From contig OX387184.1 of NCBI GenBank assembly GCA_947561395.2, positions 13,496,205-13,560,204 on the forward strand: a stretch of DNA of 64,000 bases, given 5' to 3'. Source of the DNA: Buxus sempervirens (Eukaryota > Streptophyta > Magnoliopsida > Buxales > Buxaceae). The translations under genes were made by a program, and so were the position numbers. The notes beneath the pieces are model-generated. The model ran no database searches, was not told the DNA's origin, and worked only from the letters and a program-made list of their open reading frames with translations. Shown here one piece after another: positions 6,093 through 47,515 of this stretch. Position 1 is the stretch's first letter; each line of letters starts with the position of its first letter.

Positions 6093-9000
6093 TTGCTCAC
6101 ATGTGGATGACAACTCCTAGCAAGCTTCTGATAAGCTGAGCAACAGTATGTGTACCATCAGCACAAATATAAGTAAATAACATGCTACAGTAATATTAAC
6201 AAATCACTGGAATATTATCTAAACCATGAACAAAGAAAGAGGATGACCAAACTGAATGGATATTTAATAAAAGCCCAAGCTGGTTCAGTTTATACAGACC
6301 AGACAGATGAAACTCAAAAGAAATAGCATGTTTATTCACCAAAAAATTTAATAAATCCCTCACCAAAGGAAATGTGAGGCATGATCATAAATATCAATAA
6401 AATGGTGAGACTCGTCAAACAAGCAAATCAGTTGTGATCATCATGCCCACTCCTTTTCAATTCCTCAGGATTTGCTAATAATAAAATATGGTCCTAAAAT
6501 CAAATTGTTTCTACCACATATAGGAAATTCTTTTAAAAAATGAGATAAATTGGGAAATTTAATGGCAGCATGAACTGTGAAGGAAGGGGAAAGAAAACTA
6601 TGATCTTACTTTTCCTGTGAATAACAAGTTCAAATAGTATGTTAAAACATACTACTTGTGTGAGAGAAATAAGATAGCACTCGCCAAAGGAAATAGCACC
6701 AAAAATCAATATAAAGGAAATAAATAATGAATTAATGACAACTTGATAAGTTGATAATCAAGAATTTAGCACTTTGTTACTTCAACAACATCACGTGTTA
6801 CATGAAGATCTAACATGTTTTTTCATCTCTTATTGTTTCACTTGGTATGAGCTCCTGATTGAAAGAAACCCTGGAATACAGAATTTGTAAAAAAAAAAAA
6901 TGAAAGAAAAACTCATTCAAAACAAAAAACATGTAGAGCAACTTGTAGACAAAATTATCTGGAAAGTATACTTACCACTTTTTATCTCAGATTTACTAGC
7001 ATTTCTTGACACCCCCAGAACAGAATAATAATCCTGTAAGAGGAGAATATTTAATACTTGAAACAACATAATGAATCAGTTAATGAGTTCTCAAACACCG
7101 AAATGAAAAAAGGAAAATAGCAACACATGAATATCAGACACCAGAAACCATATAGCCACTTTATTCTTCACAAAGCCACAAAAAAAGAAGAAAATATTGC
7201 CAAAATTATGCTTACAGAATCCACTCTAACAACAAAGCATGCTCCTCTTCGCTGCCGTGGGTTTGGGGGTGAAGATGATTCAAATAATGCATGCAATGAA
7301 TCTTGAGAAAATAAGCTCGAACTTGGGGATCCAAAATTTCTTATCTTGCATGAAACACTGCATACAAGTGCTATTGGATTGATTAAGTTTCTAGACACAG
7401 AAATATTAGAAGGAATTTATTAAAATAAATAAAACCAGAAATGTGCACAGCATAGTCTGAGATAAAATCGGTAGATGGAATATCGATACAATGTAAGTAG
7501 CCTATACAAACTCATACACTTTGCGTGATGGAGCTGATAACTAATAGCATCAAGTGAGTCAGCATCACAACCATCAAACTACATATTTTAAGAATAAAAC
7601 ACAAGCATAAATTCTCTCTTCAACCACCCAACACCAAAACTATAATTACTTCAAATCATGTTTAATCATGGAAATTCTAGTGAAAACAGATTGGAGGATG
7701 GAAAAGTAAACATAGGTTTTTTACCAACTAATCTACGCTCTTTCACTAACAAACCACTTAATTCATTCACACTTCTGTTAGTTTTCAAAAGGATTTGGCA
7801 AGGAATGCACACGAAAGGGCCTAGGAAAAGAATGGAAGAGTGTCTATGCCCCCCACCAACAATCCTCCAAAAATCTTGACCTGTATGCTGTAATTCATAT
7901 GCATTTAAAAAGTAGGATTTCCATTTGAAGGTAAAATAGCAGCTTGACAACATGGAATATAAATCTCCAAATTTGTACATATCCAATGGGAGCCAATTTA
8001 ATGTGATATTGCAGCTTTAATAAATGAAATTTTTATGCTAACTGCATAAAGAACAAGAAGAAACGCAATCCGGAAAGTCAAATATCTAATACCGATATTT
8101 AGCTACAGATTCTTCTTTGTTTATTGAGGGCTACTTCCAGTAATGTTGTAGAATTATTTGATCTTGTATAACCATGGTTCTACATATTATATCATATTGA
8201 ATGTTACAATTTATAGGTATCATTTATTGACTATATCGTCATAACACTTCACTATAAGATATCTATAGTGAAGTGTATGAGATGAAACTCATGCTAATTC
8301 ATCATTATTTAGCTTAAAAAATAAGTCCTGCTTTAAGTATCCAAATGTTTTCATCTGTATCCATCATATCCATGATTTTTGACGCATTTACAACAGACCA
8401 ACAAACTACTACCATACAATATTTTTAACCATGAATGTGATATTGTCTTATAAGGGAAATTCATATTCCCTATCCAATAATACAATTTACAACAAAACCG
8501 ACCAGAGAATTTCCCTTAAATGTTCTACCAATGTAATAACCATAACCACTAACCAAGAAGCAATTTTCCTTGGTATATTTGGCACACAAGCAAAATAAGA
8601 TAATATTATTTCATACAATGGGAATCTTGGCTTTTTTTATTTTATTTAGAAGAGAAGAGGAAAGAAAAGAAGCTTCTTAGATGCAACAAATCAACAATAT
8701 TGGTAAACATAGATCAACATGTTTGAGCCCAGCATATAGCTCTATCAGTTATACATAAGGATATAAAAACCTTACCAGGAAGTAGACAAGTGACATTTTG
8801 TTCGTCAGACTCAGATATATTATGCATGATGTTCATCGGGCTCAAATATATTATATGTTTAAGTTGAGGATCATCATACAATCTTCACAATAATCGCTCA
8901 CTGTATGAGTTCAGATTTTCTTATAACCAAAACTCCAGAAGAATGGTGGGAAAGAGATGCAAAATCCATGTAAAAGTTTAAATAAATGTGGTCAGTAATT

Positions 9001-9637
9001 GGGTTTATAAAACATGCAATGGAAGTTGTGGTTCATTTTGTGTTGGGAAAAAAATGAAGTTTGTCATAGTAGAATAGTTAACTATATCTCCGGAGACCAA
9101 AGTTTAACTCATTGCAACGGACAGATTATGTATAATTTTCTTGTCCTTTACAATTATTTATTAAAATTTTATAGTTTTGTGTCACTTCATAATTTCTAGG
9201 CAGATTTTTTAGGAATTTCTAGGATCTTCTTTTACAAAGAGACAGCTGAATTGTTACTGTACAGAGATTAGCCAACTGATAACACACTAAAGGATATTAA
9301 GACTTGTTTATGTGAATCATGTGGAAGGATTCTCCAAGGTTACTTGCAACCAATTTCTAATACATCTTTTATTTTGCATTCTCAAACACAAGATGACCCT
9401 TAAGGTATCTGGAACATATTTCCTCATACTGAAGCTATTTGCATATAAAATACAGATATAGCACACACTATTGCTTCTTTAAACTCAGATAGAGGCACAC
9501 ATGGTGAATTTAGACATTCAATATCATCAGTAGCTCTTTAAAAGTACTTACCTGTATTGGGACATCAGTAAATTGTTTGTAACAGAAGACTTTAGCATGA
9601 ACCTAGGTCGAATACCCCACTGGGCCACCCACGACTG
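6093..9637 (-). pseudogene. Plastid DnaJ (Hsp40) 5' exons only, copy 1
   Basis: Four minus-strand exons of a plastid DJA-type co-chaperone. Exon 1 (9552-~9637) reads QSWVAQWGIRPRFMLKSSVT. Exon 2 (7216-7390) is the rest of the transit peptide, ending PNPRQRRGACFVVRVDS. Exon 3 (6976-7033) is J-domain helix I, DYYSVLGVSRNASKSEIKS. Exon 4 (6093-6135) is helix II and the loop, AYQKLARSCHPHVSK. Splice phases join without error and fit the next exon as found in copy 3 (63294-63342). All later exons are missing. The invariant HPD tripeptide that stimulates Hsp70 ATPase reads HPH. No start codon is visible upstream of exon 1, where the gene X inverted duplication begins. It is a dead 5' fragment. Confidence 0.85.
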
Positions 9638-10524
9638 TAACAATTATACTAAATGAGGGACATATATACAAATAATAAAGAAGATAATATAGATATGCAA
9701 ATATATTATGATTTAAGGATATTGATACAAAAAGTCTTGTTTTAAATTAAAATTTGTTGAATTTAATTTGAGCCAAACCAACCTGAGTCCATAAATTTAC
9801 ATTTCGCCCAAACCGCCTCACTTAAGTAGACGTATCAATTGAAAACCCTGAAAACTCTTCAAACCCCTAAACGCGTGTTTTTGTAGCGATTCTCACTGTC
9901 CGATTCAAGCTTTTACATTTATTCTCTGAACAATTTCGAGTTAGCTTTAGAGGGGTTCTCATGTCGTTGCTAGAAACCATTATGAAAGCTGCGGCCGATT
10001 CCCAGGTCTTCGCTTTCCAATCAAAATATCCCATTATTCTGAATGCCGACGAGGTTTTGCGCGGCTTGCAACCCGAGAACGAAGATGCGAATGACACCGC
10101 TCTAATCAAGCATCTCAGAAGATGGAGGATTTCTGAAATTGATCTAGAAATCATCGATTTGGGAACTCGTTTCACTAAAAAATTGAAACGAAAGCTCAAG
10201 AACCCTAGATCATTCAACCGGGAGGAATTTTTAGGTCTTTTGAATTCATTCCTAGAGAAAAACCAGCAAAAGATTGGAATTTCAGTTAGGGTTGACCCTA
10301 CTGATTTTGATTACACCCGTGTATTGATTGAAAAGGTGGGGTAATTGCTCGTGATGTTGCAATTCTGATTCTGGAAGCTTGTTTGGTTTTGGAGCTTTGG
10401 AAGCTATTAGAAGCCATGATAATCCAAAGACTTGTTCTACATTCGTCTTCGAGCTTGGTGGATCGTCTTATCGAGAAGAATAAATCGGATTTACTTTGTC
10501 TCTGTATCAAACACGTTTCTAATA
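9632..10524. repeat. Left arm of the gene X inverted duplication, copy 1
   Basis: This arm is the reverse complement, with divergence, of 11363-12512. It contains X upstream DNA, the X start and its first ~190 codons. The spacer (10525-11362) holds the 3' part of the minus-strand X gene. The outer end of the homology reaches into exon 1 of the DnaJ remnant, and the inner end lies in mid-CDS after the codons for KHVS. Copy 2 has the same arrangement (about 44713-45329 against 46185-47215). Confidence 0.85.
9961..10524 (+). pseudogene. Gene X, 5'-half fragment on the plus strand, copy 1
   Basis: Starting at MSLLETIMKAAADSQ, this matches the first ~190 codons of the minus-strand X gene that it faces tail to tail. 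A 4-bp deletion near 10338 relative to the minus copy shifts the frame and ends it after about 127 residues (10342-10344 stop). The homology continues to KHVS at ~10524 and then stops, so the C-terminal half is absent. Its interest is structural: transcription through both arms would give a long hairpin RNA. Confidence 0.85.
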
Positions 10525-10745
10525 ACTTGACTTACTGTTTGCCTCTTCTAACCTAATTTTCTCTTGTTAGTTCGGCAAATATTTCGAATTTTTCATTTCA
10601 TTTCCCTTCATAACCAAATCAAACAAAATTCAAATGACGAGATTTTGTCAATGTAAAGAGTACTAAATTAACCATTACCACAAATGTTACAAAGCCCTCA
10701 AATAAATTCAAGTAACAACCCAAGCAACACCAATCCCAGTTCAGC

Positions 10746-11930
10746 TTAACCACTCCTAGTCTCTGCTTTCAAATTCTCAATTACAGTTGCCACTGATAAA
10801 GACAATCTAGCTACTGAAGCTAAAGACTTCACCACCTCCTCTAATGATCTCAATTCTTCATGGAACTCAGGGTGTAAGACCAATGACGAGAACTGCTCAT
10901 CAAGAACCAACCCAAGACACCTGACAACAGATTCAAGGGAAGGGACCCATTCACAGGCTTTCAATCCCAAAACTGATGCCCCTTCTGAACATGGAACTGC
11001 TTGAGGAAACCTCTCATACTTCCTCAACCACTTTCCCAAATACCCAATCAAACTCAACATCTCCAAACCAGTTAATCGCCTGATTGAAGTCGAAAACGCT
11101 AGATCATCCACGTTAGGAGACACAAACAGATAATGCAGACAGAGTTCCGGCAACGAGAACCCATCATGAGCAACCATGAGCAGAACTGAAGCTTGCTTTG
11201 CCAACTGAGATTTCTTCTCTGGGAGGCTTTTAGAGGTGGCCTTCTCTATAGCTAAAAGTACTTGGATTTCCCATTCCTTCCTCACATTCGTCATAGTCGT
11301 GTATGAATCTTTAGAAGGGGAGAGGAAGTACTTCAGGATGCAGAGAATGTCCGATTGCCGAATATCAGAAACGTGTATGATACAGAGACAAATTAAATCC
11401 GATCTATTATTCTCGATCAGACGATCCACCAAGCTCGAAAACGAATGCGGAACAAGTCCTTAGATTATCATGGCTTCCAACAACTCCCAAAGCTCCAAAA
11501 CCAAACAAACCTCCAGAATCAAAATTACAACATCACGAGCAATTAAAAACACCACATTTTCAATCAGTACACGGGTATAATCAGAATCAGTAGGATCGAC
11601 GCCAACTGAAATTCCAATCTTTTGCTGGTTTTTCTCTAGAAACGAATTCAAAAGACCTAGAAATTCCTCCCGGTTCAAAGATCTAGGGTTCTTGAGCTTC
11701 CGTTTCAATTTTTCAGTGAAACGAGTTCCCAAATCGATGATTTCCATATCAGTTTCAGAAATCCTCCATCCTCCGATACGTTTGATTGGAGTGGTGTCGT
11801 TCGCAGTTTCCTTCTCGGGCTGCAAGTCGCACAAAACTTCATCGGCATTCAGAATAATAGGATATTTCGATTGGGAAACGAAAGCCTGAGAATCAGCAGC
11901 AACTTTCACAATGGTTTCCAGCAACGACAT
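10746..11930 (-). pseudogene. Gene X (unknown plant protein), copy 1, one nonsense codon
   Basis: Same length as the open copy at 45558-46742 (394 codons, no net indel) and colinear throughout. Codon 157, CAA in copy 2, is TAA here (11460-11462). This splits the frame after LLEAMII; the remaining 237 codons stay open. I chose the start at MSLLETIVK because the plus-strand fragment and copy 2 share it, and upstream DNA is a 58-bp noncoding repeat. The encoded protein is leucine-rich and probably all-helical. I do not recognise a domain. It is a very recent pseudogene, or a sequencing error or polymorphism at one base. Confidence 0.75.
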
Positions 11931-12512
11931 GAGAACGGTGAGAAATTGTTCGGAGTTTTCAAGTTTTGAAGTGAGAATCGCAACAAAACCTCGAATCGGA
12001 CAGTGAGAAATTGTTCGGAGAACAGTGAGAAATCGGCCGCGCAAAACCTCGAATCGGACAGTGAGAGATTGTTCGGAGAACAGTGAGAAATCGGCTGCAC
12101 AAAACCTCGAATCGGACAGTGAGAGATTGTTCGGAGAACAGTGAGAAATAGGCCGCACAAAACCTAGAATCGGACAGTGAGAAGCGCAACAAAAACGCGC
12201 GTCTAGGGCTGCGAAGAGTTTTTAGGTTTTCAATCGATCTGGCACTTGAGCAATGCGGGTTGGCCGAAATGGAAAATTTTTTTTCTTCTGATACGAGCGA
12301 AGTGTAAATTTATAGAGTCACGCTAGTTTAGCTCAAATTATATTCACAAATTTTTAATTTTTAATTTTAAAAAAAAAACCAACAAATTTTCATTTAAAAC
12401 AAGATTTTTTGCGTTAATATCTTTAAATCATAATATATTTGCATATCTATATTATCTTGTTTATTATTTGTATATATATCTCTTCATTTAGTATAATCAT
12501 TACATTGTATCC
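11363..12512. repeat. Right arm of the gene X inverted duplication, copy 1
   Basis: Reverse complement of 9632-10524. It is longer because it contains three 58-bp leader repeats and extra AT-rich upstream DNA. It covers the X start region, leader and promoter side of the minus-strand copy. Confidence 0.85.
11985..12185 (-). repeat. 58-bp tandem repeats in the gene X leader, copy 1
   Basis: Units start at 11985, 12043, 12101 and 12159 (exact 58-bp spacing): three full units and a partial fourth, each carrying aaaacctcgaatcgg and a cagtgagaaat word twice. They lie just upstream of the X start. Since 58 is not a multiple of 3, each unit changes frame, so peptides such as LTVLRTISHCPIRGF appear in all frames and are not evidence of coding. 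Copy 2 has two full units. Confidence 0.95.
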
Positions 12513-12639
12513 CCAACATTAAAGTCAGCTAATTTTTATTGTTTATGTTTATTAAATGACTAAAATAAAAAAAAATATATCGCATTTATATTTTCATTTA
12601 CATTATCTTATATTGTAGATAGAATCCCATTCATACACC

Positions 12640-13420
12640 TGCTAACATGAAGGGTATAACACGGTTCAATTTAGTCCGGATTGACATCAACGTATTTGTA
12701 ACTGTCAAACTAAACCGAACCAAATTGAGAGTTGATCGCTTTAACCTGAAAACCGAACCAAACATATATGCATATACAATTTTGATTTTGATTCGGTTTA
12801 GTTTAGAGGCTGTTCAGTATAACTTTTCAAAGTTATTTTTTTTAATTTTTCAAATTAGAAAATTCTAAAAAGTCAGTTGGGTAACCTCATTTAAAAAATT
12901 ACATTTCAAAAGTTGAAATGTCATTTTTCAAAACATTTTAGAAGAAAAAAAATAACTTTCAAAAGTTGAAAAGCAACTTATAGTTTTTATTTTCTCTCTC
13001 CACCACCACCACTATCATGGCACCTCCTCCATCACCACCACCACCTCTTCCACCACCACCATTACCACGACCACCACCTCCTCCTTCATCACAACCTTGA
13101 CCTCCACCACCACCACCACCTCCTCATCTACTAGTAACATCATCACCATTCCTATCATTAATATCAACTTTTTAACTTATAAATAGATTTTGACTTCTTG
13201 TTATTAGATAATTTCTCCTACTTACAAACGTAGAAAACTTATTTTCAAAAGTAACTTCTTAAAGCTTTCCTTTTGACCTATGAAAAGTTGCTTTTGAAAA
13301 ATTATACCAAACAGCATCTTAATATCATGCATTTTCAAGTTTCAGTTCGGTTTGGTTTGATTTTGAATCAATTGTTCTCCATTTACAATTTTCCTCAATC
13401 GGGGAAAGGAACAAAAAAAA
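12640..13420. mobile_element. AACCGAACC-type repeat split by a hAT-like MITE (12807-13317)
   Basis: The outer repeat has cggttc and accgaacc words at 12660-12800 and cagttcggtttgg at 13345. The inner element runs from gctgttcagtataacttttcaaa to the inverted ttgaaaaattataccaaacagc, giving terminal inverted repeats of about 20 bp. Inside, at about 13000-13130, is an imperfect (CCA/CCT)n tract. The same nested pair is in copy 2, with the MITE at about 47516-47984 and a shorter CCA tract. It encodes nothing. The superfamily call rests only on the TIR look. Confidence 0.55.
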
Positions 13421-15640
13421 AGGTTCGAAAAAGAGTGTATTAACAATAAAATATATTCTCTTTATTATAATCTAATCTAGCCAAAAAATCTACTACTTGA
13501 TTTGATTTCTCATAATTGATTATGCTTGCCATCGAATAATTGTGCAAGAGTCTGAAGATCTGAAGATCGCGTCCGTCGTAGGGGAAGATTTATGTTGTGG
13601 AAAGCAAAGAGAATCCTGATTATTAGGTTCTTTAGAGAGGTGAGTGTAATCAGGTTTGGATACCTAACAGGTATGTATCCAAAACCCTACAATTATACTT
13701 TGATCTTTTAGTATCCTCGAACAACTCAATGTTAATGCTATTACATCTTCAAAAGAAACAGAAGAAAACATGTTGATAAACAAGTTCGACCCATTTTACA
13801 TCTATTAAAAACATGTTAAAGTATTATATAAAATTTAACTAAGTACATATTGACAATAATCATGCAAAAAGAGTGAAATTGGTTATATTGTTGTGGGAGT
13901 CATGAAATTTGTTCAAACCAGTGTGATATGACCCTAACAATAGTTTCACAATTTTATGACCCAAGGTATAAAGCAAAATTTCAATACATGTAGAGTTACA
14001 AGTTTTCCTTCATATATGAATATTTCTATCTTCACCCAAGCTTTGAAGTTAATTTCAAATTTTATTTTACCCAATATGCAAAAAGCGTAAGGGCTAAAAT
14101 AAATTTTAAAATTAACATTAGAGAGCTTTTCAAATGAAAACTATCCATTAAAGTAAATGATATAAACTAGTCAACCATACAAGTAAATGATATAATCCAT
14201 ATCCATAATCATGCCTTAAAGATTATCTGTTCTTCCATTGTTTTCTTGTTGAAACATTAGCTTGTCATTGAGGAGTTGATTTTTTGTGTTTTATTTTAAA
14301 ATTTACCTATATTTAATTAAAATGTATAAAATAACAACTATACAAAGGGAACAATGTTCAAAAAGTTTACAATTAGCTTGGTAGGCTATCAGTAATTTTA
14401 AAATTTTATATATATGCACCAAAAAAATTATATATATTTATATATTACAAAAATTTAAAGGGAGATTAAGATATAGCCATACTAATTAGTATGGATTTTA
14501 TAAAGACATAGATAAAGGAAGGAAATAATTTTTTTTCAACCAATAAATCATTCAGTCCAACGGTTACTTTAAAAACTTTGGAAGTCATAAATCATTGATG
14601 ATCTTCCTTTGATCGTCATCCCTTGTTTGAGTTGTTTCATAAAAATACTAAGACGGTTTTCATTGGTCTATTCAAATTAAAAAATCAAAACAACTTTATA
14701 CACTGATTTGATTTCTCATAATTGATTTCACTTGCCATGGCATACCTGCCAACCCCTTGATTCCCTTCTCCCACCTGCAATGCATTTCCTTGTATGATGA
14801 TGTTTTAGATTCCTAAATTACATGCTATTTCCAAACTTTCAAATAAAGTCATAACTTGTTTCTCTCCTCTGCCACTCTTTTTGCTACTTGCATATAAAAC
14901 ATTACTAAATTTTTAGTTGCCAATTCTACAAGGTTTCTTGGGTACACTTTTTTATTTTCAAACCACATTTTGTTTCAAGCTATTCATATTACCCCACATA
15001 TGTACAGAAACTTTTCAAGAATATAAAAACTTTTTTTTGCAGCTTCCTTAATCAATGCTTGAATGTCCTTATTTTCTTGTTTAATTATATAAGAGAATTT
15101 CATTACATAATAACCAAACATGTTTCGAAAATATGCATTGCCTAAATAAATTTTCATACTTTCTTCATTTTCATTACAAAAAGTACATTTATAATCCGCT
15201 TTTATATTCCTATTTGCTAGTAATTATCCCGTTGGTTAAACTTTTTATAGAAACATACAAGAGTAACATTTTTAATTTTGGAAAGCATTTCCCCCTGTTT
15301 ATCTAACAATTCCCCCTCTTTATCTGCCACTGTAAACATAAATCTTGTGGTGGTAGAAATGAAATACGCTATAGTAGTAAATGGATTCTCAACATTAATC
15401 AAAGAAGGCCTAGATGGTTTACTCTTTCATTTTTTTTAAATGAAAATAAAAACAAAAGGAAGAAGGAAAAGCAAAGAAGAAGTAAATTCATGAATTAATG
15501 TCCTGCCAAACAAAAGTCTGCCAAGACACTGAGTTCTTCAAGTATCCGTATAAATATAGACAAAATCTTTTATTTTTCTTCTAAACCACAAACCAGCAGT
15601 CTCACATGGACCTATGATCAGGTTTACCAGACAAGTGGAA
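13421..15640. other. AT-rich tail of segmental copy 1 and its right flank
   Basis: No gene recognised. From about 14195 to 15392 it is nearly identical to 48835-50026 (one mismatch seen, at 15319), whereas the preceding kilobase differs at many positions. 15393-15640 is unique sequence leading into the prolamin/protease array. Confidence 0.7.
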
Positions 15641-28310: not shown

Positions 28311-28522
28311 TTTTAGTACAACAAGGGATGTGATAGGCCCAAGGTTATTAAAATTTGTAGGCAAAGCTAGGCAATAGACCTGCCTACAGCCTACATGATT
28401 AGGTGGTTGCCTAGGTGATGAATTCTAGGCCAATTCAGTTTAAATAATTCCTAAGCACTCAATGACAAGTCTAACAATATTATATCCCACACTTTCTCAG
28501 AAAAACAGTATATCCTTCCTAC

Positions 28523-29906
28523 TGTAACGCCCTAGAAAATTAATAGGGGTATTTAGTCATTTCCTAAATAACCTATTTAATTAATTAAATTTCTAATAGG
28601 CTGAAAATTTAAGTAGAATTAATATAGGGGTATTTAGTCATTCCCTAAATATGGAGTTTTATCATCATTAGGTGAGAAAAAGGGTATTTTAATGAATATA
28701 GTTAATTAGGGAAACTTAAATTGGTAAATAAATGAAGAAATAGGGTAAATATATAATATTAAAATTAGGGGAAAATAATATTACGAAAACTGAAGAAAAT
28801 AGAATAATTATTAGAGGTTTTAGAGTGGGATAGACATCCAACTTAGGTTGGATTAGGAAACCTAACACCCTATTATAAATATTACATTAGGATTCAATAT
28901 TAGAACTTTTTATCAAAATTGAAAGAAGGATTAGGCGTGAGAAACCCTAGAAGAAGCTTAGACGTTGGAAAAAATTGAAGGAAGTTTGCTGATCTAAAGA
29001 GAACTCGAGGTGTTTAAGTGAAAAAGGTAGGTGGATCATTAACTTTATTCTGCTTGGAGATTTTAGATTGATATTTGGCTATTAAGTTTTACTATAATGT
29101 TACCATATAAAAGAATATTAGAATCATTATTAGAGGTTACGTATAGGGCTTAACGGAGACACTCTGGGATGATCGAGATCAAAATATAATGTATGATTTT
29201 CTAATAACCCTACGTTTAGCCCCATGAACTGTCAATTAATTCCTTCTTATCCATATAATTCAATAAACAATATCTACCGTTTCATTTTTATTTACAGCCA
29301 TTAAATATTAATTAATAATTAAATAGAAAACAGTTTAGAACAATTCGTATGTAATTTAAATCGCTAGAAAATAATAAGGTATAGAAAATAACTAGATTTT
29401 TATGCTAATGTTTTATCAATATAATGATAACATTATAATAATAGTAGCCAAATCTACAATCTAAAAATCTCCAAACTAAATTAAGTTCATGATCAACCTA
29501 CCTTTTTCGCTAAAACCTCAAGCCCTCTTTGGATCATCAAGCTTCCTTCAATTTTCTCCAACGCCCAAGCTTCTTCTAGGGTTTCTCACGCCTAAGACTT
29601 ATTCCAATTTTGATAAAAAGTTTTAATAATAAATCCTAATGTAGCATTTATAATAGGGTGTTAGGTTTCCTAATTCAACTTAGGTTAGATATCTATCTCA
29701 ATCTAAAACCTCTAATAATTATTCTATTTTCTTTAATTTTCATAATATTCTTTTTCTCGCCTAATGATGATAAAACTACATATTTAGATTCAAATTAAAC
29801 TTATATTAATTCTAATTAAATTTTTAATCTATTAGAAATTTAATTAATTAATTAGGTTATTTAGGAAATGACTAAAATACCCCTATTAACTTTCTGGGAT
29901 GTTACA
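28523..29906. mobile_element. 1.4-kb fold-back element with ~0.5-kb inverted arms
   Basis: The left arm (28523-~29105) and right arm (~29400-29906) are inverted copies, from tgtaacgccctagaaaattaa at the left end to ttaactttctgggatgttaca at the right, through tagaagaagctt and aggtaggtggatcat. A spacer of about 290 bp separates them. The arms resemble the start of a gypsy-type LTR (TGTAACNCCC) with a TATA-like tract, so this may be two LTR pieces joined head to head. No coding sequence. Confidence 0.7.
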
Positions 29907-30017
29907 CCCACCAATATAACTCAACAAGATGATCAACTCATTAAATGAGAGAAACAAAAAATGAGATGAATTCAAAATAAAGCTCAAGGTTAGGAATTAT
30001 AGAAGCCCGATTTAATG

Positions 30018-42053: not shown

Positions 42054-44717
42054 CACTTTTTATCTCAGATTTACTAGCATTTCTTGACACCCCCAGAACA
42101 GAATAATAATCCTGTCAGAGGAGAATATTTAATACTTGAAACAACATAATGAATCAGTTAATGAGTTCTCAAACACCGAAATGAAAAAAGGAAAATAGCA
42201 ACACATGAATATCAGACACCAGAAACCATATAGCCACTTTAGTCTTCACAAAACCACAAAAAAAGAAGAAAATATTGCCAAAGTTATGCTTACAGAATCC
42301 ACTCTAACAACAAAGCGTGCACCTCTTCGCTGCCATGGGTTTGGGGGTGAAGATGATTCAAATAATGCACGCAATGAATCTTGAGAAAATAAGCTCAAAC
42401 TTGGGGATCCAAAATTTCTTATCTTGTATGAAACACTGCATACAAGTGCTATTGGATTGATTAAGTTTCTAGACACAGAAATTTTAGAAGGGATTTATTA
42501 AAATAAATAAAACCAGAAATGTTCACAGCATAGTCTGAGATAAAATCGGTAGATGGAATATCGATACAATGTAAGTAGCCTATACAACTCATAAACTTTG
42601 CGTGATGGAGCTGATAACTAATAGCATCAAGTGAGTTAGCATCACAACCATCAAACTACATATTTTAAGAATAAAACACAAGCATAAATTCTCTCTTTAA
42701 CCACCCAACACCAAAACTATAATTACTTCAAATCATGTTTAATCATGGAAATTCTAGGGAAAACAGATTGGAGGATGGAAAAGTAAAATATAGATTTTCT
42801 ACCTGCTAATCTACTCTCTTTCACTAACAAACCTCTTAATTCATTCACACTTCTGTTAGTTTTCAAAAGGATTTGGCAAGGAATGCACACGAAAGGGCCT
42901 AGGAAAAGAATGGAAGAGTGTCTATGCCCACCACCAACAATCCTCCAAAAATCTTGACCTGTATGCTGTAATTCATATGCATTTAAAAAGTAGGATTTCC
43001 ATTTGAAGGTAAAATAGCAGCTTGACAACATGGAATATAAATCTCCAAATTTGTACATATCCAATGGGAGCCAATTTAATGTGATATTGCAGCTTTCATA
43101 AATGAAATTTTTATGCTAACTGCATAAAGAACAAGAAGAAACGCAATCCGGAAAGTCAAATATCTAATACCGATATTTAGCTACAGATTCTTCTTTGTTT
43201 ATTGAGGGCTACTTCCAGTAATATGTTGTAGAATTATTTGATCTTGTATAACCATGGTTCTACATATTATATCATATTGAATGTTACAATTTATAGGTAT
43301 CATTTATTGACTATATCGTCATAACACTTCACTATAAGATATCTATAGTGAAGTGTATGAGATGAAACTCATGCTAATTCATCATTATTTAGCTTAAAAA
43401 ATAAGTCCTGCTTTAAGTATCCAAATGTTTTCATCTGTATCCATCATATCCATGATTTTTGACGCATTTACAACAGACCAACAAACTACTACCATACAAT
43501 ATTTTTAACCATGAAATTGATATTGTCTTATAAGGGAAATTCATATTCACTATCCAATAATACAATTTACAACAAAACCGACCAGAGAATTTCCCTTAAA
43601 TGTTCTACCAATGTAATAACCATAACCATTAACTAAGAAGCAATTTTCCTTGCAATATTTGGCACACAAGCAAAATAAGATAATATTATTTCATAAAATG
43701 GGAATCTTGGCTTTTTTTATTTTATTTAGAAGAGAAGAGGAAAGAAAAGAAGCTTCTAAGATGCAACAAATCAACAATATTGGTAAACATAGATCAACAT
43801 GTTTGAGCTCAACATATAGCTCTATCAGTTATAGATAAGGATATAAAAACCTTACCAGGAAGTAGACAAGTGACATTCTGTTCTTCAGACTCAGATATAT
43901 TATGCATGATGTTCATCGGGCTCAAATATATTATACGTGTAAGTTGAGGATCATCATACAATCTTCACAATAATCGCTCACTGTATGAGTACAGATTTTC
44001 TTATAACCAAAACTCCAGAAGAATGGTGGGAAAGAGATGCAAAATCCATGTAAAAGTTTAAATAAATGTGGTCAGTAATTGGGTTTATAAAACATGCAAT
44101 GGAAGTTGTGGTTCATTTTGTGTTGGGAAAAAAATGAAGTTTGTCATAGGAGAACACTTAACTATATCTCTGGAGAACAAAGTTTAACTCATAGCAATGG
44201 ACAGATTATGCATAATTTTCTTGTCCTTTACAATTATTTATTAAAATTTTATAGTTTTGTGTCACTTCATAATTTCTAGGCAGATTTTTTAAGAATTTCT
44301 AGGATCTTCTTTTACAAAGAGACAGCTGAATTGTTACTGTAAAGAGATTAGCCAACTGATAACACACTAAAGGATATTAAGACTTGTTTATGTGAATCAT
44401 GTGGAAGGATTCTCCAAGGTTACTTGCAACCAATTTCTAATACATCTTTTATTTTGCATTCTCAAACACAAGATGACCCTTAAGGTATCTGGAATATATT
44501 TCCTCATACTGAAGCTATTTGCATATAAAATACAAATACAGCACACACTACTGCTTCTTTAAACTCGGATACAAGCACACATGGTGAATTTAGACATTCA
44601 ATATCATCAGTAGCTCTTTAAAAGTTCTTACCTGTATTGGGATGTCAGTAAATTGTTTGTAACAGAAGACTTTAGCATGAACCTAGGTCGAATACCCCAC
44701 TGGACCACCCACGACTG
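42054..44717 (-). pseudogene. Plastid DnaJ 5' exons only, copy 2
   Basis: Exon 1 (44632-~44717), exon 2 (42294-42468, 175 nt) and exon 3 (42054-42111, 58 nt) match copy 1 in length and splice phase. Exon 2 reads PNPWQRRGARFVVRVDS and exon 3 encodes the J-domain start, DYYSVLGVS. The fourth exon and everything downstream are removed by the 2-kb deletion at 41307. The start codon is not visible, as in copy 1. Confidence 0.85.
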
Positions 44718-44770
44718 TAACGATTATACTAAATGAGAGGATATATATACAAATAATAAAGAAGATAATA

Positions 44771-44930
44771 TATGTCTACTTAAGCAAGGCGGGTTGGGCG
44801 AAATGTAAATTTATGGACTCAGGCTGGTTTGGCTCAAATTAAATTCAACAAATTTTAATTTAATTTGAGCCAAACCAGCCTGAGTCCATAATTTACATTT
44901 CGCCCAACCCGCCTTGCTTAAGTAGACGTA
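44771..44930. repeat. Near-perfect hairpin with 74-bp arms
   Basis: 44771-44844 and 44857-44930 are inverse copies. I see two differences: one substitution near the outer end and one single-base indel. The loop is about 12 nt and AT-rich. Copy 1 has only the right-hand arm (about 9745-9835), so the left arm is a local inverted duplication made after the segmental copies split. It lies 130 bp upstream of the X fragment start. Confidence 0.9.
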
Positions 44931-45056
44931 TCGATTGAAAACCCTGAAAACTCTTCAAAACCCTAAACGCGTGTTTTTGTAGCGATTCTCACTGTCCGAT
45001 TCGAGCTTTTACATTTATTCTCCGAACAATTTCGAGTTAGCTTTAGAGGGGTCCTC

Positions 45057-45329
45057 ATGTCGTTGCTAGAAACTATTATGAAAGCTGCGGCCGATTCCTA
45101 GGTCTTCGCTTACCAATAAAACTATCTCATTATTCTGAATGCCGACAAGGTTTTGCGCAGCTTGCAATTCTTATTCTAAAGGCTTGTTTGATTTTGGAGT
45201 TTTGGGAGTTGTTGGAAGCCATAATAATCCAAGGATTTGTTCCGCATTCGTCTTCGAGCTTGGTGGAACGTCTTATCGACAAGAATAAATCGAATTTACT
45301 TTGTCTCTGTATCAAACACGTTTCTGATA
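45057..45329 (+). pseudogene. Gene X 5' fragment on the plus strand, copy 2
   Basis: Same fragment as 9961-10524 but further decayed. A TAG follows MSLLETIMKAAADS (CAG in copy 1), and 291 bp are missing between two ttgcaa words (10066 and 10357 in copy 1), leaving one at 45162. It ends at the same KHVS breakpoint. Confidence 0.85.
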
Positions 45330-45557: not shown

Positions 45558-46742
45558 TTAACCACTCCTAGTCTCTGCTTTCAAATTCTCAATTACAGTT
45601 GCCACTGATAAAGACAACCTAGCTACTGAAGCTAAAGACTTCACCACCTCCTCTAATGATCTCAATTCTTCATGGAACTCAGGGTGTAAGACCAATGACG
45701 AGAACTGCTCATCAAGAACCAACCCAAGACACCTGACAACAGATTCAAGGGAAGGGACCCATTCACAGGCTTTCAATCCCAAAACTGATGCCCCTTCTGA
45801 ACATGGAACTGCTTGAGGAAACCTCTCATACTTCCTCAGCCACTTTCCCAAATATCCAATCAAACTCAACATCTCCGAACCAGTTAATCGCCTGATTGAA
45901 GTCGAAAACGCTAGATCATCCATGTTTGGAGACGCAAACAGATAATGCAGACAGAGTTCTGGCGACGAGAACCCATCATGAGCAACCATGAGCAGAACTG
46001 AAGCTTGCTTTGCCAACTGAGATTTCTTCTCTGGGAGGCTTTTAGAGGTGGCCTTCTCTATAGCTAAGAGTACTTGGCTTTCCCATTCCTTCCTCACATT
46101 CGTCATAGTCGTGTATGAATCTTTAGAAGGGGAGAGGAAGTACTTCAGGATGCAGAGAAGGTCCGATTGCCGAATATCAGAAACATGTTTGATACAGACA
46201 CAAATTAAATCCGATCTATTCTTCTCGATCAGACGATCCACCAAACTCAAAGACGAATGCGGAACAACTCTTTGGATTATCATGATTTCCAACAGCTCCC
46301 AAAGCTCCAAAACCAAACAAGCCTCCATAATCAAAATTGCAGCATCACGAGCAATCAAAAACGCCACATTTTCAATCAATACACTGTTGTAATCAGAATC
46401 AGTAGAATCGACCTCAACTGAAATTCTAATCTTTTGCTGATTTTTCTGTAGGAACGAATTCAAAAGACCTAGAAATTCCTCCCGGTTGAAAGATCTGGGG
46501 TTCTTGAGCTTTCGTTTCAATTTTTCGGTGAAACGAGTTCCCAAATCTATGATTTCCAGATCAGTTTCAGAAATCCTCCATCCTCCGACACGCTTGATTG
46601 GAGCGGTGACGTTCGCAGATTCCTTCTCGGGCTGCAAATCGCGCAAAACCTCGTTGGCATTCAGAATAATGGGATATTTCGATTCAGAAGCGAAGGCTTG
46701 AAAATCGACCGCAGCCTCCGTAATGATTTCTAGCAACGACAT
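45558..46742 (-). CDS. Gene X, conserved plant protein of unknown function, open copy
   Basis: Open frame of 394 aa from MSLLEIITEAAVDFQAFASE to NLKAETRSG, single exon. It is leucine-rich and probably all-helical. Stretches include LEIIDLGTRFTEKLKRKLKN, ARDAAILIMEACLVLELWEL, DIRQSDLLCILKYFLSPSKD, VLLMVAHDGF and LVLHPEFHEELRSLEEVV. I see no signal peptide, membrane segment or known catalytic motif. The frame stays open upstream to 46856 through the 58-bp repeats. I reject that extension because the repeats change frame and the shared start is MSLLE. A fragment of its own 5' half faces it tail to tail 230 bp away, so antisense small RNA control is possible. I sense wide conservation in plants but cannot name it. 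Confidence 0.75.
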   Translation of the reverse strand: MSLLEIITEAAVDFQAFASESKYPIILNANEVLRDLQPEKESANVTAPIKRVGGWRISETDLEIIDLGTRFTEKLKRKLKNPRSFNREEFLGLLNSFLQKNQQKIRISVEVDSTDSDYNSVLIENVAFLIARDAAILIMEACLVLELWELLEIMIIQRVVPHSSLSLVDRLIEKNRSDLICVCIKHVSDIRQSDLLCILKYFLSPSKDSYTTMTNVRKEWESQVLLAIEKATSKSLPEKKSQLAKQASVLLMVAHDGFSSPELCLHYLFASPNMDDLAFSTSIRRLTGSEMLSLIGYLGKWLRKYERFPQAVPCSEGASVLGLKACEWVPSLESVVRCLGLVLDEQFSSLVLHPEFHEELRSLEEVVKSLASVARLSLSVATVIENLKAETRSG

Positions 46743-46796
46743 GAGAACAGTGAGAAATCGTTCGGAGTTTTCAGGTTTTGAAGTGAGAGTCGCAAC

Positions 46797-46937
46797 AAAA
46801 CCTCGAATCGGACAGTGAGAAATTGTTCGGAGAACAGTGAGAAATCGGCCGCGCAAAGCCTCGAATCGGACAGTGAGAGATTGTTAGGAGAACAGTGAGA
46901 AATCGGCAGCGCAAAACCTAGAATCGGACTCTGAGAA
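46797..46937 (-). repeat. 58-bp leader repeats of gene X, copy 2
   Basis: Two full units (46797, 46855) and a partial third (46913), against three full units in copy 1. Confidence 0.93.
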
Positions 46938-47515
46938 GCGCAGCAAAACGCGCGTTTAGGGTTAGGAGTTTTTAGGTTTTCAATGGATACGCGTACTTCG
47001 GCAACGCGGTTACGCGAAATGTAACCGCGTTGGTTTGGCTCAAATTAGATTCAACAAATTTTTAATTTCTAAAATTTTTTAAAAAAAAATCAACAAATTT
47101 TAATTTAAAACAAGACTTTTTGCATTAATATCCTTAAATCACAATATTTTTGCATATCTATATTATCTTGTTTATTATTCGTATATATACCCTTCATTTA
47201 GAACAATGTTACAATTGTATCCCCAACATTAAGTCCGTTAATTTTTATTGTTTATGTTTATTAAATGACTAAAACAAAAAAAATACAGTTCGCATTTATA
47301 TTTTTATTTACATTATCTTATATTGTAGATAGAATCCCATTCATACACCTGCTAACATGAGGGGTATAACACGGTTCAGTTTGATCCGGGTTGACATCAA
47401 CGTATTTGTAACTGTCAAACCGAACCGAACCAAATTGAGAGCTGATCGCTTTAACCTGAAAACCGAACCAAACATATATGCATATACAATTTTGATTCGA
47501 TTTGGTTTAGTTGAG

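Follow-up and report, generated by a model that had tools for sequence, protein, structure and literature searches.

Gene-derived inverted repeats are known sources of small RNAs in plants, and the soybean CHS inverted repeats, for instance, yield siRNAs directed against the gene family. Equal marking of all cytosine contexts is a hallmark of RNA-directed methylation. That inverted repeats of genes make siRNAs and methylate themselves has been described for the Arabidopsis PAI and VIM4-VIM2 loci (PMC13213937). According to that source, the siRNAs of the PAI inverted repeat come mainly from the stem and are accompanied by CG and non-CG hypermethylation, and VIM4-VIM2 has read-through RNA, few loop siRNAs and silencing in trans. 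Hairpin transgenes are also methylated in the inverted repeat, and when C is exchanged for T in the sense arm, the RNA still pairs through G:U and self-silencing is prevented (PMC9263138). Among the titles and abstract openings on C>T footprints at inverted repeats, no record of an arm-confined C>T excess at a natural gene palindrome was noticed, which does not prove its absence.

The locus analysed here lies in a window of 64,000 bp (C4:13496205-13560204) of a genome of 676,531,615 bases, which by its size and the appearance of its open frames is probably that of a plant. Gene X and an inverted copy of its own 5' half form a palindrome, as the first-pass annotation had proposed. Arm 1 (9632-10524, plus strand) pairs with arm 2 (11363-12512, minus strand) in three blocks of 80-90% identity, and a separate repeat search of the window gave the same inverted blocks as the pairwise alignment. 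The inner block joins 9955-10524 with 11363-11936 (570 bases in arm 1, 87.8%, E 0.0), the middle block, containing the leader, joins 9793-9914 with 12159-12279 (122 bases in arm 1, 80.5%), and the outer block joins 9636-9759 with 12380-12504 (124 bases in arm 1, 90.4%). The gap between the inner arm edges (10525-11362, minus strand) is 838 bp and contains the X 3' half (ORF 10746-11294, minus strand) together with about 220 bp of X 3' flank. Both X starts are at the outer sides and directed inwards, that is, tail to tail, so the proposed spacer and orientation were also confirmed. A gene segment is therefore present in two long inverted copies that a short spacer separates. The arms had been described as repeated X start, leader and upstream DNA; the three paired blocks agree with this, but the arms are not uniform. 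Arm 1 consists of a truncated outer repeat, the X leader and the first ~190 X codons with a broken frame, while arm 2 consists of the X 5' half, a leader with three tandem units of ~58 bp (11983-12182), which are absent from arm 1, and the outer dispersed repeat. Matches of the right-hand outer repeat extend to about 12560-12614, so 12512 marks where pairing stops and not where an element ends.

Both this locus and the soybean CHS repeats are gene-derived inverted repeats, but in soybean the siRNAs and the phenotype were measured, while here the evidence is sequence only. PAI4-PAI1 of Arabidopsis Ws and Cvi is likewise an inverted repeat of a gene in tail-to-tail orientation, and single copies of that gene exist at unlinked sites. 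It differs in that its siRNAs and methylation were measured and the repeat is recent, whereas here the arms are ~12% diverged, one of them is a 5' fragment, and a putative mark is deduced from mutations. VIM4-VIM2 of Cvi is also a natural gene inverted repeat but is arranged head-to-head with first exons 100% identical and a 50-bp centre.

The X reading frame of copy 1 (10746-11930, minus strand) has 394 codons with one in-frame TAA, which by alignment is a C>T change in a glutamine codon, and the copy-2 frame (45558-46742, minus strand) has 394 codons and no internal stop. Arm 1 of copy 1 is a broken X fragment whose frame ends after 127 codons. An intact X with a single open frame of 394 codons and no inverted partner is located on contig C8; within the surrounding 19.8 kb, a single inverted pair exceeds the BLAST threshold, and it lies in the upstream repeat and not in X. 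The C8 protein gave 10 matches in the genome, namely three full-length ones (C8, copy 2 and copy 1), the arm fragments and three 34-residue fragments. DNA searches, in which the best candidates were scored, added short X fragments of about 36-115 bases among the matches listed, and no further full-length X donor was found in the assembly by protein or DNA searches. The ~85-bp part of X at 10259-10342 has 87-92% matches on C3, C4, C6, C8, C10 and C22, which are short relics of X. A Pfam search with X returned only Nol11_C below the cut-off (E 0.055, 13.4 bits against a cut-off of 25), a PDB search returned only NOL11 (E 0.25-0.26), and the AlphaFold model of copy-2 X is poor (mean pLDDT 44.1). 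It had been suggested that siRNAs of the locus would target X itself. A homologous gene that could serve as a target is indeed present elsewhere, but the X of the palindrome would largely be the source, and the natural target in trans would be the intact C8 X, which 365/550 21-mers from arm 1 of copy 1 match with two or fewer mismatches (45/550 exactly).

An inverted duplicate of a segment comprising the X 5' half and leader arose beside X, and the entire arrangement was subsequently copied in a tandem array. Copy 2 is composed of arm 1 (44713-45329, plus strand) and arm 2 (46175-47213, minus strand, from the alignment). Its layout had been called the same as that of copy 1, and this holds for the junctions, which are kept; however, ~290 bp of arm 1, corresponding to about 10067-10356, are missing, and the arm ends on its outer side in a short foldback without a spacer (44770-44931, ~80-bp arms, 94.5% identity), which is found in copy 2 only and probably arose later within arm 1 by foldback or template switching. 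Because both copies have the same junctions, the palindrome predates the duplication into copies 1 and 2, and the arm 1 loss and the short foldback appear to have come after it. That 9632 is a true junction follows from the third tandem unit, which lies downstream (C4:13566132-13566703): it has the same left flank as far as base 9632 but different sequence after it, and this different sequence was found nowhere else in the genome by search. At the inner junction, X-sense sequence passes into X 3' flank with about three bases in common. End joining or template switching may have produced the palindrome through segmental duplication in inverted orientation. Transposon capture as the origin was unsupported, as the left boundary lies within a dispersed repeat, the right repeat runs past 12512 and the inner junction has few shared bases.

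Positions 1-57481 and the DNA past both window ends form a tandem array of large segmental duplications with more units up- and downstream. At 14323-15392 copies 1 and 2 are almost the same (1 difference in about 1070, compared with 3-11% nearby), apparently by recent exchange. The right flank 12615-13000 has 74-80% matches at several sites on C8 (45.25-45.36 Mb), close to the intact X at 45.40 Mb, so the C4 and C8 regions are related.

Divergence between copies 1 and 2 was counted by segment. The copies differ at 63/574 positions in the arm 2 X block (11.0%), at 19/168 in the inner part of arm 1 (11.3%) and at 9/111 in its 5' part, and at 15/838 in the spacer (1.8%). The unpaired leader 11937-12092 differs at 6/156, and the paired leader block 9793-9914 is barely above it (6/121). 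The divergence steps are compatible with the arm edges: change points were fitted at 10440 (2-lnL range 10440-10525, with arm edge 10524 at its very end), 11373 (11332-11437, with edge 11363 inside) and 11978 (11915-11998, with edge 11936 inside), the outer edge 9632 being left out because copy 2 is rearranged there. Within 7000-13000, and with the outer arm parts excluded, the paired X arms differ at 91/853 positions versus 111/4014 at other positions, and this difference was reached by 26/5594 circular shifts of the mask. The stretch 12606-12900 beyond arm 2 is likewise divergent (24/294), and other stretches of the array reach 19/250. The four arms share one history, so they represent one locus and not replicates.

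The mutations were polarised as singletons among copy-1 arm 1, copy-1 arm 2, copy-2 arm 2 and C8 X over 564 columns, with 19 variable non-singleton columns dropped. Flank controls were taken from copies 1 and 2 plus the third unit (1807 columns) and from four units (1549 columns, 11 non-singletons dropped). The numbers of singletons (26, 25, 28 and 19, respectively) give nearly a star. Synonymous versus other singletons were 12/14, 12/13, 9/19 and 9/10 in the same order, with 32% expected to be synonymous, and this share gave no clear sign of strong constraint or diversifying selection on the arms. C>T or G>A made up 51/79 singletons in the three arms (21/26, 16/25 and 14/28, so that copy-2 arm 2 by itself has 14 C>T and 14 other changes) and 38/143 in the flanks; the share expected in the arms from the flank spectrum was 33% (p about 1e-8). 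Per C/G site, these changes amounted to 51/726 in the arms (7.0%), 38/3770 in the flanks (1.0%) and 8/664 in the spacer (1.2%), a rate in the arms 7.0-fold over the flanks and 5.8-fold over the spacer. All C/G-site changes together were 4.8-fold up (66/726 versus 71/3770 in the flanks) and A/T-site changes not significantly (13/921 versus 72/7807, p = 0.16), so greater age than the flanks does not by itself account for the arms, and cytosines are the target. The excess is not all C>T, because T>C (3.0-fold) and C/G transversions (2.4-fold) are also up relative to the flanks, where A/T transversions in the arms stand at 0.4-fold, and A/T-site changes are up relative to the spacer (13/921 versus 3/894, p = 0.02); the arm-spacer contrast may therefore partly be homogenisation of the spacer.

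The C>T rate in the arms was equal by context (CG 12/174, CHG 9/132, CHH 30/420), while that in the flanks fell from CG (7/156) to CHG (7/529) and CHH (24/3075), with a region-by-context interaction of p = 0.009. The C8 X, which is the same sequence without an inverted partner, has 5 C>T and 14 other singletons versus 51 and 28 in the arms (Fisher p = 0.004). The part of arm 2 whose partner is deleted in copy 2 has 4/11 C>T and the remainder 10/17, a comparison of no help because copy 1 has the same trend. Of the two proxies used for RdDM, the arm-confined C>T excess in all contexts was found, and the same mark on the trans target was not; the matching 5' half of C8 X has no C>T excess (5/19 singletons) and thus gives no sign of lasting methylation in trans. 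Since the C>T changes are arm-limited, occur in all contexts and show no excess in the partnerless C8 gene, long-lasting methylation guided by foldback RNA would be the best explanation. The pattern fits past siRNA-directed methylation of the arms and gives indirect support for a foldback source of dsRNA and siRNAs. The locus thus probably resembles Arabidopsis PAI: a natural foldback-RNA locus whose own siRNAs would have guided methylation to its arms in the course of evolution.

A gene-conversion mosaic is the main rival: exchange between tandem units would have homogenised the spacer and left flank recently, the arms would keep an old divergence, and the steps would be tract ends. The very uneven divergence between copies of the array (0/250 to 19/250 per counting window), the nearly star-like arm tree (singletons 26, 25, 28 and 19 of 564 columns) and the lower frequency of non-C>T changes in the spacer (5/1564) than in the flanks (105/11617) all speak for it. 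However, tract ends would be required at three arm edges, greater age should lift all types of change alike, contrary to the difference between A/T and C/G sites, neither the equal CG, CHG and CHH rates nor the C8 contrast is predicted, and the searches of the assembly gave no additional full-length donor of X. We therefore consider a mosaic unlikely, though deserving of serious attention. Palindromes are fragile, and pairing of the DNA itself, by cruciform extrusion or inter-arm heteroduplex, could have made the arms error-prone with no role for RNA; such mutagenesis would be arm-limited too. Loop and flanks beside the arms are unaffected, though, a C>T bias is not its obvious product, and exchange between the arms should make them alike, which does not agree with 88% identity, so this explanation appears improbable.

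Methylation spreading in the ordinary way from the dispersed repeat at the outer ends would agree with the matches of the outer parts to that repeat (45 and 43 among the matches listed). Yet the leader 11937-12092, which is closer to the repeat, differs at only 6/156 positions, the divergence step is found at the arm edge 11363, some 1 kb away from the repeat, and the same repeat upstream of C8 X is accompanied by no C>T excess there; spreading is, if anything, slightly more improbable than DNA pairing. In fungal RIP, C>T mutation is confined to a repeat, as it is here, and a RIP-like process would mutate any duplicated DNA. The direct tandem duplicates (spacer and left flank) are spared, however, and a CpA preference is absent (3' neighbours of the 51 mutated C were T 18, G 12, C 11 and A 10, for 61, 58, 55 and 68 sites), so that neither feature of fungal-type RIP was found, and this already disfavoured explanation has hardly any chance of being correct.

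Under the preferred explanation, methylation guided by foldback RNA, the X promoter would transcribe the minus strand through arm 2, spacer and arm 1, and the read-through RNA would fold back on itself. Dicer-like enzymes would cut the stem into siRNAs, which would direct cytosine methylation in all contexts to the matching arms while sparing the loop. Over many generations, the methylated cytosines would be deaminated and repaired, which would leave the C>T-rich scars in the arms, and the siRNAs may act on the intact C8 X too. The ability of a transcript to fold into a long duplex, as claimed before, is supported by RNAfold of 9632-12512, which, run without a shuffled control, predicts -1493.5 kcal/mol and 811 arm-arm pairs for the minus strand and -1341.9 kcal/mol and 558 arm-arm pairs for the plus strand.

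The arm changes are also biased by strand. On the plus strand there are 36 G>A and 15 C>T (24.9 G>A expected, p = 0.0014, in a test chosen post hoc); all three arms and all contexts agree in direction, and with copy-2 arm 1 added in shorter five-way alignments the counts are 29 versus 9, from data that overlap with the former. The flanks have 22 C>T and 16 G>A (p = 0.42). Because C>T prefers the minus strand, which is the strand of X, minus-strand RNA keeps more G:U pairs: 37/66 mismatches of the copy-1 X block are G:U in minus-strand RNA versus 15/66 in plus-strand RNA, and in copy 2 they are 11/23 and 9/20 versus 4 and 7 for the other strand. The leader and outer blocks have no such asymmetry (5 to 4 of 22 and 4 to 5 of 11). 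Two readings fit the strand bias, deamination of the strand exposed in minus-strand transcription or selection for pairing, and either would point to read-through RNA in the X direction.

A more speculative and rather doubtful extension is that the hairpin edits itself: its siRNAs would methylate its own arms, C would turn into T mainly on the read-through strand, and the arms would diverge as DNA while the RNA could still pair through G:U. The minus-strand C>T scars, which leave G:U pairs in minus-strand RNA, resemble the engineered G:U hairpin of PMC9263138, but there C is fully replaced in one arm, and here the drift is partial, natural and in both arms. If this is true, the locus would be a natural counterpart of that hairpin, one that slowly escapes self-silencing without losing its capacity for siRNA production, and inverted repeats would hold a readable mutational record of past RdDM. 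If methylation guided by foldback RNA is true, past siRNA-directed methylation would be readable from DNA alone as a C>T excess that is equal in CG, CHG and CHH and stops at the edges of an inverted repeat. Silent or extinct siRNA loci could then be dated and mapped in every plant genome that has been assembled, hairpin silencing would be seen to carry a mutational cost, and it could be tested what becomes of young gene-derived inverted repeats, which are possible ancestors of MIRNA genes.

Rfam gave 0 matches at the gathering score in 9000-13500. A bacterial promoter and terminator scan found 5 and 2 sites versus 7.0 and 2.2 in shuffles, and it is irrelevant to a eukaryote. The window contains a second long inverted repeat at 28500-29930 with arms of about 0.6 kb (85%). 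It has 120 genome-wide matches among the matches listed, the nearest on C8 at 45.23 Mb, and as part of a multi-copy repeat it is unfit as a clean test of generality. By eye, some open frames appear protease-, PPR- and DnaJ-like.
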